Notes under the pieces: generated by a model | Told to the model about the DNA's origin: nothing | Databases searched by the model: none | Seen by the model: the letters and a program-made list of their open reading frames with translations, nothing else | Virus record (IMG/VR): IMGVR_UViG_3300005731_000044 | Location: 1 to 20,769 of that record | Direction: 5' to 3' (one strand) | DNA length: 20,769 nucleotides | Source of the DNA: a virus | Shown: positions 4,873 to 20,769 of the stretch, in pieces | Layout: each line of letters starts with the position of its first letter | Position numbering within the stretch: position 1 is the first letter of the stretch | Program-made: the position numbers and the translations under genes

Positions 4873-5209
4873 CTCCAGGTTTTCTTAGTGACTTCTTTTT
4901 AAATTCATCCTCTTCAGCATTCATCATGGCTTCTAACCTTCGATTCATCCCTATAATCTCATCAATTATCACAACTGAATCCACAATAGATGCCTTTTTC
5001 GCGGCAGCAGCTCTCGTGAGCTTGTCCGAGGCTAAATCCTCGATATTCCTTTTTTCTTCATCGGAACTAGATTCAGAATCTTTCTTTTCACTAAGTACAA
5101 TTCTTTTCGAAGCTACAAGCGCCAATTCTTCAAGCGCTACATATCCAGCATCTCTAGCCCTGATTAATGCTTCTTTAATTTTATCGTCCTGCCCTTTGAT
5201 TTCTTTCAT
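4859..5209 (-). CDS. Small helical protein upstream of terL, terminase small subunit candidate
   Basis: A predicted 116-residue, highly charged protein directly before terL, overlapping it by 14 bases. I prefer the ATG at 5209 because it forms an ATGA overlap with the upstream stop; an in-frame ATG at 5218 is also possible. The sequence is almost all predicted helix: an N-terminal amphipathic part (KEALIRARDAGYVALEELAL), a Ser/Glu/Asp-rich linker, an Ala/Lys-rich helix and a Lys-rich tail. Small terminase subunits are short helical DNA-recognition proteins encoded just before TerL, so position and size fit. I see no clear helix-turn-helix, and the assignment is from context only. Confidence 0.4.
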   Translation of the reverse strand: MKEIKGQDDKIKEALIRARDAGYVALEELALVASKRIVLSEKKDSESSSDEEKRNIEDLASDKLTRAAAAKKASIVDSVVIIDEIIGMNRRLEAMMNAEEDEFKKKSLRKPGDGKS

Positions 5210-5721
5210 CTGAAACAAATATTTTTCTGTGGAACACGATACATGCTCACATCATCGATTCTGAACTCGTATTCGGATCCGGGCTTGTAATAAAACTTCT
5301 CCCCTTCTGAGAATCCTTGTGATCTTGATTCTGGTGATGATATGAGAATTTTCCCAAAGTGCTTGTTGTCAGTTGAAAAAAACAAGTAAGGGTACACGGA
5401 TTCCCATCCGCTTCCGTTTCTGTTAAAAGCGAAGACCTGAAGCAAATCTGCACGATATACGGTACTCCTTATCATGGAATGACTAAACTTCTCCCTACCT
5501 TTGACATCATTGTACTTTCGGAATACATTGTGATGGACAATGGCAGAATCCCCAACCTCAATAGGTCCATTATAACCCAATGGAACAGACTTGATTATTG
5601 CAACCCTGTTACTGACCCTGTGATCTTCTATTGAAGAAGACATAGTGAACCCTTCTTTACTTTTCGGAGTCGATATTTTACCATTCAAAGGTTCGACTAT
5701 AAATTCGCTTAATGATCTCAT
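5206..5721 (-). CDS. Conserved-looking phage protein, possible GroES-like beta-barrel
   Basis: A 171-residue protein of unknown function between a 75-residue-class gene and the terminase module. It starts at ATG 5721, one base after the upstream stop, and ends in an ATGA overlap with the next gene. It is rich in beta-strand signals. FIVEPLNG at the start, VSNRVAIIKS...EVGDSAIVHHNVF in the middle and EYEFRIDDVSMYRV at the end resemble, in order, the first strand, the GEV-VG-...-VGD-V-F core and the final strand of GroES-fold proteins, with an insertion of about 60 residues. This is a weak pattern match by eye. A structural role or a packaging-associated chaperone role is equally possible. Confidence 0.4.
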   Translation of the reverse strand: MRSLSEFIVEPLNGKISTPKSKEGFTMSSSIEDHRVSNRVAIIKSVPLGYNGPIEVGDSAIVHHNVFRKYNDVKGREKFSHSMIRSTVYRADLLQVFAFNRNGSGWESVYPYLFFSTDNKHFGKILISSPESRSQGFSEGEKFYYKPGSEYEFRIDDVSMYRVPQKNICFR

Positions 5722-8625: not shown

Positions 8626-9122
8626 TGCCAAGAAAAAAGAAGAAGATAGAAACAACTGTCGTAATAAAAAAGAACCTTCAAAGAAGACAGCCAAAAAATG
8701 ATTATTTGAAATATTATCGGGTCGTTAGATATTGGGCAAAAAGAAAGTATAACTTAAAAGATCAAGATTTGGAAATCTTGTTTTTTGTGGCCACTGAAAG
8801 ACTGTTTTCAAAGACCGAATTCGAAAATTACGCTTCCGTGTTCTCGTGGAATAAAAATAGATTCAAAAATTTATTAAGAGACGGATGGATTCAGTCGTTC
8901 AGAAATGCAGAAGGGGGTCTTCATGCTCTATACGAGGCTACATTCAAAACAAGAAGAATGCTTGATACATTTTATAAATTGCTAAACGGTGAACAGGGGT
9001 TCCCAGTAGACCCTAGGAACAACCCTGTATTCAAAAGAGAAACCTACACAGATAAGGTAATGGCTCATCAGATGCTCAGCATAAACAAAAAGTTCAAAGA
9101 TTCATTGCCGTCAATCAAGTGA
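8625..9122 (+). CDS. MarR-like winged-helix DNA-binding protein (only plus-strand gene)
   Basis: A 165-residue protein starting MPRKKKKIETTVV at ATG 8625. After a basic N-terminal tail, residues 27-57 form a helix (DYLKYYRVVRYWAKRKYNL). The block 61-89 resembles a helix-turn-helix, with recognition helix SWNKNRFKNLLRDGWI at 74-89. A wing-like turn at 91-106 (SFRNAEGGLHALYEAT) is followed by a long helix. This follows the MarR order: helix, turn, recognition helix, GWI, wing, LYEAT. MarR-like proteins bind palindromic operators as dimers. It is the sole gene on this strand, diverges from the late operon over 44 bases, and overlaps the groES-like gene tail-to-tail by 12 bases. A late-gene regulator role is inferred; a structural role is possible. 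Confidence 0.6.
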   Translation: MPRKKKKIETTVVIKKNLQRRQPKNDYLKYYRVVRYWAKRKYNLKDQDLEILFFVATERLFSKTEFENYASVFSWNKNRFKNLLRDGWIQSFRNAEGGLHALYEATFKTRRMLDTFYKLLNGEQGFPVDPRNNPVFKRETYTDKVMAHQMLSINKKFKDSLPSIK

Positions 9123-9386
9123 ACCGACAAGGACTATTGATCCAATAGGGATCATAATCACAGACTCTCCCTCTAACGTTTTGAAGGAGAATTTTCTAGC
9201 TTTGTTGTAATAAACGGTTTCATCAATTTTTATGACTTCCTCATATTTCTCAGGAACATACTTGACTTTTCCAATTTGAATAATCATTGACTCTTGTTCA
9301 GAGCCAGCGAACTTGAAATCTCCAGATATAGAAAGATCTTTATTAACCGCTTCTATTCCTATGTAATCGTTTAAAGCTCTATTCAT
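9111..9386 (-). CDS. groES: Divergent GroES-like co-chaperonin
   Basis: A 91-residue protein of GroES size (GroES is about 97). It has the family's strand order: RALNDYIGIEAV at 3-14 matches the RPL-DRVIV strand, SMIIQIGKVKYVP at 33-45 the GEVLAVG strand, IKIDETVYYNKARKF at 52-66 the VGDIVIF strand, and GESVIMIPIGSIVLV at 73-87 the closing EEVLIM...DILAI strand. Residues 15-34 (NKDLSISGDFKFAGSEQESM) take the place of the mobile loop, but the GroEL-contacting IVL tripeptide is not conserved; FKF may stand in. The gene starts inside the groEL stop region (ATGAATAG, 8-base overlap), so it is coupled to groEL, in the reverse of the usual bacterial groES-groEL order. Co-chaperonin identity is inferred from these patterns plus the neighbour. 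Confidence 0.72.
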   Translation of the reverse strand: MNRALNDYIGIEAVNKDLSISGDFKFAGSEQESMIIQIGKVKYVPEKYEEVIKIDETVYYNKARKFSFKTLEGESVIMIPIGSIVLVGSLD

Positions 9387-11019
9387 TGCTGATATTTGTT
9401 ATGATTGCAGATGTATTCATAATCGTAGTCGCAACAGAAGTCGCATTCTGAATTGATTTCCGAGTCACTTTCGTTGGGTCTATGATTCCGCACAAAACCA
9501 TGTTACAGATTACCTCTTGTTTGGCATCATAACCATGTCCTATGGTAGACCGTTCCACTGAATCGACTATGTTATCGATTTCGGACTCGCGTAGTCCGGA
9601 GTTTCTGATAATTTGTCTCAACGGCTCACTTAGAGATTCGCTTACGATCAATCTAGCAATCAATAATGGTGGGAGAGACGATGGGCTGAACCTTAACTTC
9701 AATCTCTGAATTAAGTTCAGTTTCGGTTTCAGTCTCACAGCAGCGTTGAACATTGAAATGCCGCCACCTGGTAATATCCCTTCCTCAATTGCAGCTTTTG
9801 TAGCGAGAACAGCGTCATCTACACGATCCTTCTTTTCTTTTTGTTCAATATCAGAGTTCGCTCCTACGTAGATAATCGAAGCCATTCCAGAAAGTCTTGA
9901 TATTCTCTCTCTCAAAAATTCAATTTCATTTTGATCGTCCTCAACTTCGATTTGAGCTTTTAATTCTTCAACCCTTTTAGAGACTCTTTGCTTAACCTCT
10001 TCTGAATCGTTCATCGAAATCAAAGTGGAAGTCCTACTTACGGATACTCTCTTGACTTCACCCAAATCCGAAAACTTAAACGTATCCCAATTGTCTCCTT
10101 GGTTTTTGTCAATGAATCTTGCCCCGAATGTTATTGCCATATCGGACATGAAATCATTAGTTTGATCGCCAAAGGAAGGAGGTAGTATATGACATCCTCT
10201 TATACTTCCATCAGCTAAATTAGAGTTGAAAGTTTTAAGCGATTCATGAGATAAATTACCTATAATCAGCAAAGGTCTTCTGGATTTCATTACTTCGGAC
10301 ATTACACCTTGAATTGAATAAAAGGTTGGCAACTCCACCGTACTCAAAAGCACTAACGGATTATCCAGCTCGCAAACCTTTCTTCTGAAATCAGTGACCG
10401 AATAAGGAGAAATAAGACCTCTTTTGAGCCGCATCCCAGAATAAGTTTCAAAGTAGGTTTTGTGGTTTGGACTTTTATCAACCATTACAGATCCATCTTC
10501 TCCAGCTTCTATATAAGCTTTACTTATGATTTTTCCCAGTTCGCGATCATTGTTCGCTGAAATGGATGCTACCATTTCCATTCTTTCATTGGTGATCGGT
10601 ATATTATGAGAAACAAGATCATTGTCGGCCATTGAAGTAAGACGCTTCACTTGCTTGATGATCTCATTCATATTTGACCTTTTGTCGGTGTACTTTCTGG
10701 TAGCCTTCAAAATAGCATGAGCAACAACAATAGAGGTCGTGGTTCCATCTCCAGCTTCTTCTGCAGTTTTCTTTGCGGCTTCAATTATAAGACGAACAGC
10801 TAAATCCTCAGTGGGATCATAAAGAAAAACCGATCTAGCCACTGTTACACCGTCCTTAGTTACGGTTAATCCTCTAGTGTGGGATCTGGACTCAATTATT
10901 ACCGTTCTACCCCTTGGACCTAGAGTAGACCCTACTGCTTTCGATACTTTCTCTATTCCAGAGAACAATTTAGATTCCGCTTCCTTCTCGAATAAAATTT
11001 GATTTGAATTTGATTCCAT
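9379..11019 (-). CDS. groEL: Phage-encoded group I chaperonin GroEL
   Basis: A 546-residue full-length chaperonin that forms the ATP-driven folding cage. ATPase signatures are intact: STLGPRGRTV at 31-40, TKDGVTVA at 54-61, GDGTTT at 90-95, RVDDA at 399-403, GILPGGG at 414-420 and IIDPTKVTR at 512-520. ISANNDRELG matches the intermediate domain. Differences from E. coli GroEL: GYNA is GYDA near 496-499, the equatorial domain has a short insertion around 438-452, and the C-terminus ends NISNE with no GGM tail. In the apical domain the peptide/GroES-binding surface is altered (GYLSPYF becomes GLISPYS at 201-207; the VV after LATL becomes NS at 265-266). It heads a two-gene unit with the groES-like gene downstream. 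A role in folding phage capsid or tail proteins is inferred. Confidence 0.95.
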   Translation of the reverse strand: MESNSNQILFEKEAESKLFSGIEKVSKAVGSTLGPRGRTVIIESRSHTRGLTVTKDGVTVARSVFLYDPTEDLAVRLIIEAAKKTAEEAGDGTTTSIVVAHAILKATRKYTDKRSNMNEIIKQVKRLTSMADNDLVSHNIPITNERMEMVASISANNDRELGKIISKAYIEAGEDGSVMVDKSPNHKTYFETYSGMRLKRGLISPYSVTDFRRKVCELDNPLVLLSTVELPTFYSIQGVMSEVMKSRRPLLIIGNLSHESLKTFNSNLADGSIRGCHILPPSFGDQTNDFMSDMAITFGARFIDKNQGDNWDTFKFSDLGEVKRVSVSRTSTLISMNDSEEVKQRVSKRVEELKAQIEVEDDQNEIEFLRERISRLSGMASIIYVGANSDIEQKEKKDRVDDAVLATKAAIEEGILPGGGISMFNAAVRLKPKLNLIQRLKLRFSPSSLPPLLIARLIVSESLSEPLRQIIRNSGLRESEIDNIVDSVERSTIGHGYDAKQEVICNMVLCGIIDPTKVTRKSIQNATSVATTIMNTSAIITNISNE

Positions 11020-14370: not shown

Positions 14371-14588
14371 TTTATTGATTTTTTGATTGGTATTCCTTTT
14401 TCTCCTGTCTTCCATTCACGGGGAAGACTTCCCGTTTCTCCAGATGGATACTGATACATCTGAATAGTCGAATCTGTGTAAAACTCAAATTCCTGCTCCG
14501 ATTCACAAACAGGCTTAGATTCATAATCACGACCACAACCCAGTTGGATCGTGGCCATGATTAGAACGATGATACTACTCTTCTTCAT
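14331..14588 (-). CDS. Small lipoprotein-like exported protein
   Basis: An 85-residue protein with N-terminus MKKSSIIVLIMATIQLGCGR: two lysines, a hydrophobic stretch and a Cys at position 18 in LGCG, which fits a Bacteroidota lipoprotein signal loosely (the usual -3 Leu is replaced by Gln). The rest, rich in Glu, Ser and Tyr (VCESEQEFEFYTDSTIQMYQ), is polar. ATG 14588 overlaps the end of the DUF4494-like gene by 14 bases. Its 3' end overlaps the repeat-protein start by about 40 bases, which is unusually long and lowers confidence. Periplasmic or outer-membrane lipoproteins of phages often serve in superinfection exclusion; that is only a possibility here. Confidence 0.5.
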   Translation of the reverse strand: MKKSSIIVLIMATIQLGCGRDYESKPVCESEQEFEFYTDSTIQMYQYPSGETGSLPREWKTGEKGIPIKKSIKCQKITTQKMKFK

Positions 14589-15048
14589 CGGATGATTTAC
14601 GTGAAAGCTCTCGGTCAAGATTTTCCTTGTATGGGAAAACTTCTACGATCGGAGAAACTACTACGGATGGGATTTCGAAATCTACCATCAACGTTGAAAG
14701 TGACTCCTTGATTCTTTCGTAAGCCTGTTTAACCGATCCAGCCGTTACGAGGAAATTCTGATTCACCTTGCGCGATTTTTCTGAATCGGCATCCATTGTT
14801 TCGTAGCGAACCTTACACTTGTGCCAAACATCGGCATCATCGTAAGCGAAAATGTCGTGTACTTCGGTTCGATTGATACCAACAACATTGAACTCGCCAC
14901 GGATAATCTGACCAAGTTCTTCATTAATTCTCGCCTCTGCATCGGTGAAGGTCATTGCCGCGAGCAGATACGGTTCCGAAACACGTTTCAGTGATCCATT
15001 GTCAAGTTGTTTCGTGTACTTGACTTTTACTGTAAACCAATTATTCAT
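14575..15048 (-). CDS. DUF4494-like phage protein
   Basis: A 157-residue protein beginning MNNWFTVKVKYTKQLDNGSL. I chose the ATG at 15048, not the TTG at 15099, because NNWFTVKVKY is where the family's conserved sequence starts. The pattern W-x-V-K-V-x-Y-x-K-x-x-x-x-G-x-x-x-x-V-x-E-P-Y-L-x-x-A-x-T-F-T-x-A-E-A-R at the N-terminus, then GEFNVVGINRTEVHDI and VWHKCKVRYET, fits DUF4494, a domain of unknown function common in Bacteroidota and their phages. The C-terminus is acidic (SSDEEE). It is the first gene after the structured non-coding region at 15125-15222. Confidence 0.72.
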   Translation of the reverse strand: MNNWFTVKVKYTKQLDNGSLKRVSEPYLLAAMTFTDAEARINEELGQIIRGEFNVVGINRTEVHDIFAYDDADVWHKCKVRYETMDADSEKSRKVNQNFLVTAGSVKQAYERIKESLSTLMVDFEIPSVVVSPIVEVFPYKENLDRELSRKSSDEEE

Positions 15049-15124
15049 ATTTAAACTGTATTGAATTGAATTCGAATCTAGTGAATAATCGGGCAGCAAT
15101 GAACCAATTTATGATGAACGGTTA

Positions 15125-15231: not shown

Positions 15232-15588
15232 TTATTTCAAAGCGTAAACAACCGCAATAAAAAGTGAATCTTTCAGCTTCTGTTCCATCGGGAGTTCCTC
15301 GTAAGGAACAATGCAAGGATGCTCTTTTTTCTCTGGATCTTTTACTGGTCCGAATTTCCACCCAGCATCAACTTTCTCTTTCATCCAACTGTCATGGCTG
15401 GCAGAAGGTCCAGCGTCTTTGTTGTTGATATGAAACATGACTCCATTTCGAGCTGACTCCTTTTGCCAATCTGGAGCATTCTCCCATGAAGGTTGAGAAT
15501 CGTCACCGATTCCAATACAATAAGCTCGATTCGCCTCGTGACAAACTCTAGCAATTTTTTCTACGTAATCTGGATTAAAACTTTCCAT
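15232..15588 (-). CDS. RyR-domain protein
   Basis: A 118-residue protein consisting almost entirely of one RyR (ryanodine-receptor repeat) domain. The N-terminal IARVCHEANRAYC at 12-24 is followed by PSWENAPDWQKESARNGVMF at 33-52, then SHDSWMKEKVDAGWKFGP at 64-81, KDPEKKEHPCIVPYEELP at 83-100 and a closing helix QKLKDSLFIAVVYAL. These are the family's hallmark blocks (H-x-x-W-x-x-x-K-x-x-x-G-W-x-x-G, H-P-x-x-x-P-Y-x-x-L-P). RyR domains occur widely in bacteria and phages; their biochemical role is not settled, and ligand or nucleotide sensing has been proposed. It is the last gene of the overlapping accessory operon before the structured region. Confidence 0.85.
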   Translation of the reverse strand: MESFNPDYVEKIARVCHEANRAYCIGIGDDSQPSWENAPDWQKESARNGVMFHINNKDAGPSASHDSWMKEKVDAGWKFGPVKDPEKKEHPCIVPYEELPMEQKLKDSLFIAVVYALK

Positions 15589-18380: not shown

Positions 18381-18470
18381 AATTCTGATTTAGATTTGAA
18401 ATCCGAATATACATCTGATTCTGGTTCAAAAGCAGCCAAATGTGATGAGTGGCCAAGAACCTATTTTAAA

Positions 18471-18499
18471 CGGAAAAGCCCAAGGTTGAACTTGGGCTT
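18471..18499 (-). terminator. Rho-independent terminator after the Acb2-like gene
   Basis: A perfect 9-bp stem AAGCCCAAG/CTTGGGCTT closes the six-base loop TTCAAC (minus strand). On the minus strand it is followed by TTCCGTTT, with two more T from the stem end. It is located 24 bases after the stop of the Acb2-like gene and ends the two-gene cassette. Confidence 0.78.
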
Positions 18500-18522
18500 G
18501 GATTTGGAAATGTGCATGAATT

Positions 18523-18756
18523 TTAAGCTGTTAACGCTTTCACTCCAAAGTGAGATGCGGATTCAAACTCAGTCATCGCTACACTGTACCAGCGTTTTAC
18601 TTCTGGGTCTGGACTCGCGTCTGATTTCTCTTTGCAGAGATCGATCAATTCTGCGACCTTGAGTTTGAAATTACCTACATCGTCACTATTTGACGGATTA
18701 AAGTTTGCGCGAACACGCTGCATGCCGAAAGTCGGCTCTTGATTTTGTTCTGACAT
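18523..18756 (-). CDS. Acb2/Tad1-like cyclic-nucleotide sponge family protein
   Basis: A 77-residue protein, MSEQNQEPTFGMQRVRANFN at the start. The arrangement RVRANFNPSNSDDV at 14-27, KLKVAELIDL at 31-40, KRWYSVAMTEFESA at 54-67 and HFGVKALTA at 69-77 fits the small two-helix phage family (Acb2/Tad1 hairpin, DUF7681) whose consensus is FNPS-x(4)-V-x-x-(I/F)K...A-x-L-I-D...E-x-A-x-x-x-x-V-K-A-x-T. Members of the wider family bind signalling cyclic nucleotides made by CBASS or Thoeris defence and so protect the phage; binding has been shown only for some relatives. The gene is second in a cassette with its own promoter (19315-19345) and terminator (18471-18499). The assignment to the family is fairly firm; the sponge function of this copy is inferred. 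Confidence 0.68.
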   Translation of the reverse strand: MSEQNQEPTFGMQRVRANFNPSNSDDVGNFKLKVAELIDLCKEKSDASPDPEVKRWYSVAMTEFESASHFGVKALTA

Positions 18757-18791
18757 TTTGATTTTGATTTTGCTCTGACAGGCGAGCCGCC

Positions 18792-19902: not shown

Positions 19903-20769
19903 TCACGATGGACCGCAACTCTCACCGTAAGCCCCAGACGGAAGAATCCATTCACCAGTGAAGAAGACCTCTAAAGTGTATTCCTCGGACATGGCCATCT
20001 CCACTAAACTCAATTCGGTTATGGTTCCAGGATAGACTTCGCCCTCTTGTATGAGCTCGACCAAGGTCTTGTTCCTTTTCATGGTCACGCCAAATTCCTG
20101 TTCAAGCGAGACGATTTCCTTCATGCCTTTCGGGTCGATGAAGTTTCCAGTTGCGAATTGGTCTTTGTTTCCGAATATGCAGTGAAGGCACGAGCAACGA
20201 CTGTACCCCAGATAATAACACGGGTGTACGCGCACGTTCCAGCGCTTGATTATGTCCCAGACCATTTTCTCGGTCCAGTCGCGGATCGGTCGTGCACGGT
20301 CCACATACCGGTCTACTTTTGGTCCGCCTCGATTGTCTGATCGATCTGGTTCCAGGACTGAATACTTTGCGCGAGCTGAACTTTCTTCTCCTCGCTCACC
20401 AGATATGACCAATGTCCTAATCCCATTAAATCTGTCCTGCATTCTGATTGCCGCAGCACACACATCAATCTTCAGATATGCTGAACACCACCTCACCTTC
20501 AAGTCCGCAGAAGTCTGTGGAAACATTCGTCTGGTTGAGAGTTTGCCCATTGTTCCGCCTCTGGATATGATTTCTTTCAAATAGTAATCAGCATCAGAGC
20601 CTTCAAGTTCTTGATTCGGAATCTCGGTAAAAATCGGAGCAGTCCTCTGATTACTTTTCAATATCTCGCGCTTGAATCCGCCTTCCTTCCAAGAGTAAAA
20701 GATCGGAACTCCGAACGCTCTTGCGAACTTGCTGCAGTAATCCTTGGTGATCGGCCAGTCAAAAAAGTG
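19903..20769 (-). CDS. PAPS-reductase-family protein, N-terminus cut by window edge
   Basis: The frame is open to the right edge, giving at least 288 residues; the true start lies beyond. The visible part begins HFFDWPITKDYCSKFARAFG, then GVPIFYSWKEGGFKREIL. It continues with the family blocks FPQTSADLKVRWCSAYLKID, IRTLVISGERGEESSARAKY, RPIRDWTEKMVWDIIKRWNV, HPCYYLGYSRCSCLHCIFGN and FGVTMKRNKTLVEL. This is the phage branch of phosphoadenosine phosphosulfate reductase/adenine-nucleotide alpha-hydrolase-like proteins. The cysteine group CSCLHC could carry an iron-sulfur cluster as in DndC-type members. Sulfur transfer to nucleic acid or sulfate-related metabolism is possible; the substrate is unknown. 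The P-loop-like N-terminal SGG motif would be outside the window. Confidence 0.82.
   Translation of the reverse strand, partial: HFFDWPITKDYCSKFARAFGVPIFYSWKEGGFKREILKSNQRTAPIFTEIPNQELEGSDADYYLKEIISRGGTMGKLSTRRMFPQTSADLKVRWCSAYLKIDVCAAAIRMQDRFNGIRTLVISGERGEESSARAKYSVLEPDRSDNRGGPKVDRYVDRARPIRDWTEKMVWDIIKRWNVRVHPCYYLGYSRCSCLHCIFGNKDQFATGNFIDPKGMKEIVSLEQEFGVTMKRNKTLVELIQEGEVYPGTITELSLVEMAMSEEYTLEVFFTGEWILPSGAYGESCGPS

Follow-up and report, generated by a model that had tools for sequence, protein, structure and literature searches.

A 77-aa open frame in a 20.8-kb IMG/VR record (the window, meaning the whole stretch of DNA analysed here) raises the question of whether the phage that carries it makes a sponge for the nucleotide signals of bacterial defence and, if it does, which of these signals the sponge would take up. 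The frame runs on the minus strand from an ATG at position 18756 to a stop codon at position 18523. The first-pass annotation had given these coordinates exactly, leaving the strand unstated, and the arrangement that it had read in the translation (FNPS...V...K...LID...R...A...E.A..HFGVKA.T, with its HFGVKA and DASPDPE stretches) is present there in every part. Reading-frame translation shows the plus strand across 18523-18756 to be closed by many stops, and a plus-strand ORF that overlaps the gene (18396-18662) was judged spurious. A terminator-like hairpin, detected by a consensus scan only, lies 24 bases past the stop codon. The start codon is spanned by a 17-base direct repeat (TTGATTTTGTTCTGACA and TTGATTTTGCTCTGACA, spacing 25, window positions 18739-18780), and the initial codons of the gene seem to be duplicated immediately upstream. 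The features of the locus are listed in Table 1.

Table 1 Positions of the sponge-candidate gene, its conserved residues and its neighbouring elements in the window.
Feature	Position	Strand	Basis
CDS, Acb2/Tad1-hairpin-family sponge candidate, 77 aa	18523..18756	−	ORF; PF24729 match over the cut-off (E = 1.8e-7)
F19-N20-P21-S22 motif, FN invariant (91/91)	18691..18702	−	Alignment; F19 on Y11 (PaP2) / Y8 (T4) in the global profile alignment
Predicted long helix 1, residues 25-47	18616..18684	−	AlphaFold2, pLDDT 94.4
K31 (91/91)	18664..18666	−	Alignment; K26 of PaP2 / K23 of T4
R55 (90/91)	18592..18594	−	Alignment; R67 of PaP2
Predicted long helix 2, residues 51-76	18529..18606	−	AlphaFold2
T62 (89/91)	18571..18573	−	Alignment; T74 of PaP2 / T68 of T4
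H69-F70-G71, unusual site, normally MWA or MWG	18544..18552	−	91-member alignment
Intrinsic-terminator-like hairpin, 9 pairs, then a T-rich tail	18476..18499	−	Consensus scan only
RyR-domain (PF02026) protein, 118 aa, RyDEP-like candidate, possible partner counter-defence gene	15232..15588	−	PF02026 and residue spacing

The 77-aa protein truly belongs to the known family of Acb2/Tad1 sponges, albeit as a divergent member. The Pfam model PF24729 (Acb2_Tad1_hairpin) matches residues 21-76 with 31.7 bits, above its curated cut-off of 27 bits, and the match was reproduced in a DNA-level search of the window; this result and the profile-profile match to solved Acb2 described below agree with the family membership that had been proposed from the motifs. 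A tblastn search with the protein found 153 phage records, nearly all with at least 80% length coverage, and the relatives in unrelated phages are 38-46% identical to it over 86-99% of the length (E down to 2e-10). The best of them, at 42-46% identity, belong to Pasteurella phage Pmp11, phage DSL-LC05 and Flavobacterium phages, and the relative in Enterobacter phage EcP1 is 38% identical. Since the PF24729 match exceeds the curated cut-off and relatives occur in unrelated phages, the motif arrangement is not due to chance. In the phage records that we looked at, the relatives are annotated as hypothetical proteins. With an alignment as the query, relatives of this branch, which we call the FNPS branch, were found in at least 316 IMG/VR contigs, of which the best 80 were kept, and in 33 genome assemblies of Bacteroidota, Pseudomonadota, Acidobacteriota and Saccharibacteria. 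Searches with the single 77-aa sequence gave zero matches in a scan of viral contigs, weak matches only in PHROGs and chance-level matches only in the PDB (phmmer).

All 91 aligned members of the branch match PF24729. Residues F19, N20, K31, A35, A67, V72 and K73 are invariant among them and G11, P21, V27, R55, A60, T62 and T76 nearly so; the window protein keeps all near-invariant positions of the family except M69 and W70. The tree of the branch has two groups, AVG...QTAQMWAVKAxTW and RVR...EEAAMWAVKAATA, and places the window protein in the latter on a long branch together with L020 and L070, although it is built from few columns, its bootstrap is not settled and, as the program warns, long branches meet at the window protein. 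The protein has the same motifs as its relatives in Flavobacterium phage FCV-1, Pmp11, EcP1 and DSL-LC05 (38-46% identity) and differs from them by this long branch within the RVR clade. A third, more divergent hairpin group (L242, L243 and L244), in which, for example, MMVVKSLT replaces MWAVKAxT and R55 is lost, comes from phages that are akin to the window phage by terminase.

The link to CHARACTERISED Acb2 is provided by the profile of the 91 relatives, which finds T4 Vs.4, that is, Acb2 (PDB 7uq2, E = 2.3e-4), and also weakly matches PDB entry 9ptq, 'Acb2 homolog 43'. The p26 protein of PaP2 was found and shown to be the Acb2 chain of the solved structures 8h2j/8ixz. When the FNPS family was compared with a T4 and PaP2 Acb2 alignment profile to profile (hhalign), the probability was 95.3 (E = 2.2e-8) and the score 46.6, against 10.4 for the reversed alignment and 20.0 for the best of 200 column shuffles; the probabilities were 88.8 with T4 alone, 57.5 with PaP2 alone and 95.9 for the RVR clade alone. 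In this comparison K31, R55 and T62 are the counterparts of PaP2 K26, R67 and T74 (for the T4 residues, see Table 1), and K31 lies in a common VxxIK motif. F19, an aromatic Phe and not a Tyr, falls on the PaP2 and T4 tyrosines only in a weaker global alignment (probability 79). Of the PaP2 residues, K26 contributes to the pocket for dinucleotides and R67 to that for trinucleotides. In T4 Acb2, the Y8A mutant is binding-deficient and T68M lowers the affinity (PMC12657230). In these alignments, the positions most strongly conserved in the FNPS branch correspond to the residues of importance in Acb2.

Beyond this match, the window protein and Acb2 (T4 Vs.4, 7uq2; PaP2 p26, 8h2j) have the Pfam hairpin domain and the helix layout in common, but the identity of the aligned core is only about 18%. 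The window protein is 77 aa long whereas Acb2 has 88-93 aa, it carries TFG..RVR..FNPS instead of the N-terminal IKGY motif of Acb2, its inter-helix region is shorter and it displays H-F-G at the M-W-A site. The published Acb2 protomer consists of one short N-terminal helix and two long antiparallel helices (PMC10419184). AlphaFold2, run as a monomer with the 91-row alignment, predicts the same layout for the window protein with a pLDDT of 94.4 and zero strands: a short helix at residues 10-14 is followed by an antiparallel hairpin of two helices (25-47 and 51-76), the fold that the first-pass annotation had expected. Among the 50 best Foldseek matches listed against the PDB, Acb2 and Tad1 chains are absent and unrelated helical proteins come top with E > 0.5; this comparison is uninformative because a hairpin on its own is too common a shape. 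Among viral models, the two best Foldseek matches are proteins named Acb2/Tad1 hairpin.

At the H69-F70-G71 site, MWA is found in 78 of the 91 members, MWG in 8, HWA in 3, MFG in 1 and HFG in the window protein alone, but the pattern by which the members were retrieved admitted only M or H, W or F, and G or A there, so that variation at the site is under-sampled and its true spread may be wider. The first-pass annotation had singled out both this site and the DASPDPE loop as a reason why ligand preference may differ from that of studied members. HFG is indeed rare, whereas the loop is nothing special, as the family varies most in this loop, where a D/N-P-E-V-K-R ending is common. A shifted preference is conceivable, but HFG justifies no inference about the ligand because the replacement of W70 by F keeps an aromatic residue and the corresponding positions of PaP2 Acb2 are both Met; H69 itself occurs in three relatives and is common to the window protein, L020 and L070.

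About 3 kb from the sponge-candidate gene and on the same strand lies a gene for a 118-aa RyR-domain protein, which matches PF02026 with E = 5.1e-12 and 46.3 bits (cut-off 27.4). The phage protein RyDEP acts on the cADPR signals of Thoeris by cleavage or sequestration (PMC13232231), and residues H65, W68, H90 and D107 of the 118-aa protein are spaced (+3, +25, +42) exactly as H75, W78, H100 and D117 of RyDEP, a match reached by 25 of 200,000 residue shuffles. The neighbour is a candidate anti-Thoeris cADPR glycosidase or sponge, its sequence fitting either type, and it differs from the hairpin sponge candidate in fold and in gene. Retention of the complete set of four RyDEP ligand residues raises the possibility that the phage uses one gene against CBASS and another against Thoeris. 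In record G034, a distant relative of the window phage as judged by terminase, four consecutive same-strand genes (L246, 8417-11000) are a hairpin gene, GroEL, a RyDEP-like RyR gene whose product is 60% identical to that of the window, and GroES. Of the other hairpin phages, 0 of 45 had an RyR gene, and a general pairing of hairpin and RyR genes was rejected; this absence is a weak one in that the search matched nowhere, although its model did pick up the copy in G034. The pair was seen in one relative of the lineage.

The window portal and terminase match PHROGs 6547 and 6681, and 86 of the 87 terminase-matching phage records are Flavobacteriia phages, the remaining one being from an unassigned spring metagenome. 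Judged by terminase sequence, the closest relatives with known hosts infect Flavobacteriia, in support of the earlier placement of the phage in Bacteroidota. A search for Bacteroidota −33/−7 promoters gave zero matches, so the host evidence rests on the terminase relatives. Elsewhere in the window, all on the minus strand, a phage GroEL gene (9379-11019, PHROG 5725) overlaps a small GroES-like ORF (9111-9386) that was matched only indirectly; a second GroES-like protein (5206-5721, PHROG 13932) adjoins the terminase; a DUF4494 protein is encoded at 14575-15099 (PF14902, E = 1.8e-48); and a PAPS-reductase-like auxiliary gene (19903-20769, PF01507, PHROG 424) runs past the window end.

The placement of the hairpin gene varies from phage to phage. 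MW202828, the closest complete relative of the window phage, lacks it, and a survey of about 110 hairpin loci for a conserved operon partner found every neighbour family in 10 loci or fewer. Members of the AVG sub-clade often adjoin terminase or portal genes (L019, L043, L003 and similar loci), which would put the sponge in the late region. In two further records besides G034 (G030 and G024), about 1 kb or less separates the hairpin gene from phage GroEL/GroES. GroEL is present at 4 of 119 hairpin loci; a general linkage was therefore rejected, and the association holds in three phages of the window-phage lineage. Patchy and mobile placement of this kind fits an accessory counter-defence gene.

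By analogy with Acb2, the likeliest function of the 77-aa protein, and in our judgement a probable one, would be that of an oligomeric sponge for the cyclic di- and trinucleotides of CBASS. The gene product, small and all-helical and belonging to the RVR clade of the FNPS branch in the Acb2/Tad1-hairpin family, would by homology with Acb2 assemble into a hexamer. Cyclic dinucleotides would be held in inter-protomer pockets composed of the N-terminal segment and the hairpin (F19, K31, T62); the interfaces of trimers (R55) would take up the cyclic trinucleotides. The CBASS effectors would then not be triggered and the infection would continue.

The first-pass annotation had named CBASS or Thoeris as the system to be blunted; CBASS is the better guess. 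That the protein is a sponge of this family but, like Tad1, chiefly binds an NAD-derived signal of Thoeris (2'cADPR or 3'cADPR) appears quite improbable, even though PF24729 includes the Tad1 hairpin besides that of Acb2, so that the domain is common to Tad1 and the window protein, and Tad1 binds both types of signal (PMC12043709). The gcADPR pocket of Tad1 is made of loops of its N-terminal β-strands together with helices (PMC12043709), whereas the 77-aa protein is all-helical in the model; as it lacks the N-terminal β domain that builds this pocket, it is less likely to act directly against Thoeris. The phage also has the separate RyR-domain gene of a cADPR-handling kind (PMC13232231), which is the better anti-Thoeris candidate of the two.

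A hairpin that has been repurposed, with a role in packaging, assembly or another phage process in place of nucleotide sequestration, is unlikely. It would suit the many relatives that lie within a terminase-portal cluster (e.g. L019, L043, DSL-LC05 and Pmp11) and the three lineage relatives that adjoin GroEL/GroES and have lost R55 and the W. The residues equivalent to the Acb2 ligand sites are, however, the most conserved of the FNPS branch, and the gene is patchy among close phages, down to its absence from the nearest complete relative, with positions that range from replication to packaging regions, as fits an accessory and not a structural gene. That the frame is a chance one or a decayed remnant is barely credible: the ORF is short and its branch long, but the full-length frame is open and matches a curated family, the near-invariant positions are all kept bar M69 and W70, and the terminator-like hairpin stands directly past the stop codon. 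The CBASS sponge remains the preferred reading.

A broader proposal is possible but doubtful. The FNPS branch may be a large sponge clade whose AVG and RVR sub-clades read different signals, in which the HFG protein would have a ligand range shifted toward the CBASS signals of Bacteroidota and, alongside the RyDEP-type gene, would let the phage block CBASS and Thoeris separately.

Acb2 has been described in a recent preprint as relatively rare and confined to particular groups of phages (PMC11722364). The breadth of the FNPS branch suggests that nucleotide sequestration by phages may be far commoner than the characterised set implies, and the sponge idea is directly testable thanks to the conserved residues that line up with the ligand sites of Acb2. 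Furthermore, the nearby RyDEP-like gene suggests that a single phage may disarm two second-messenger defences.
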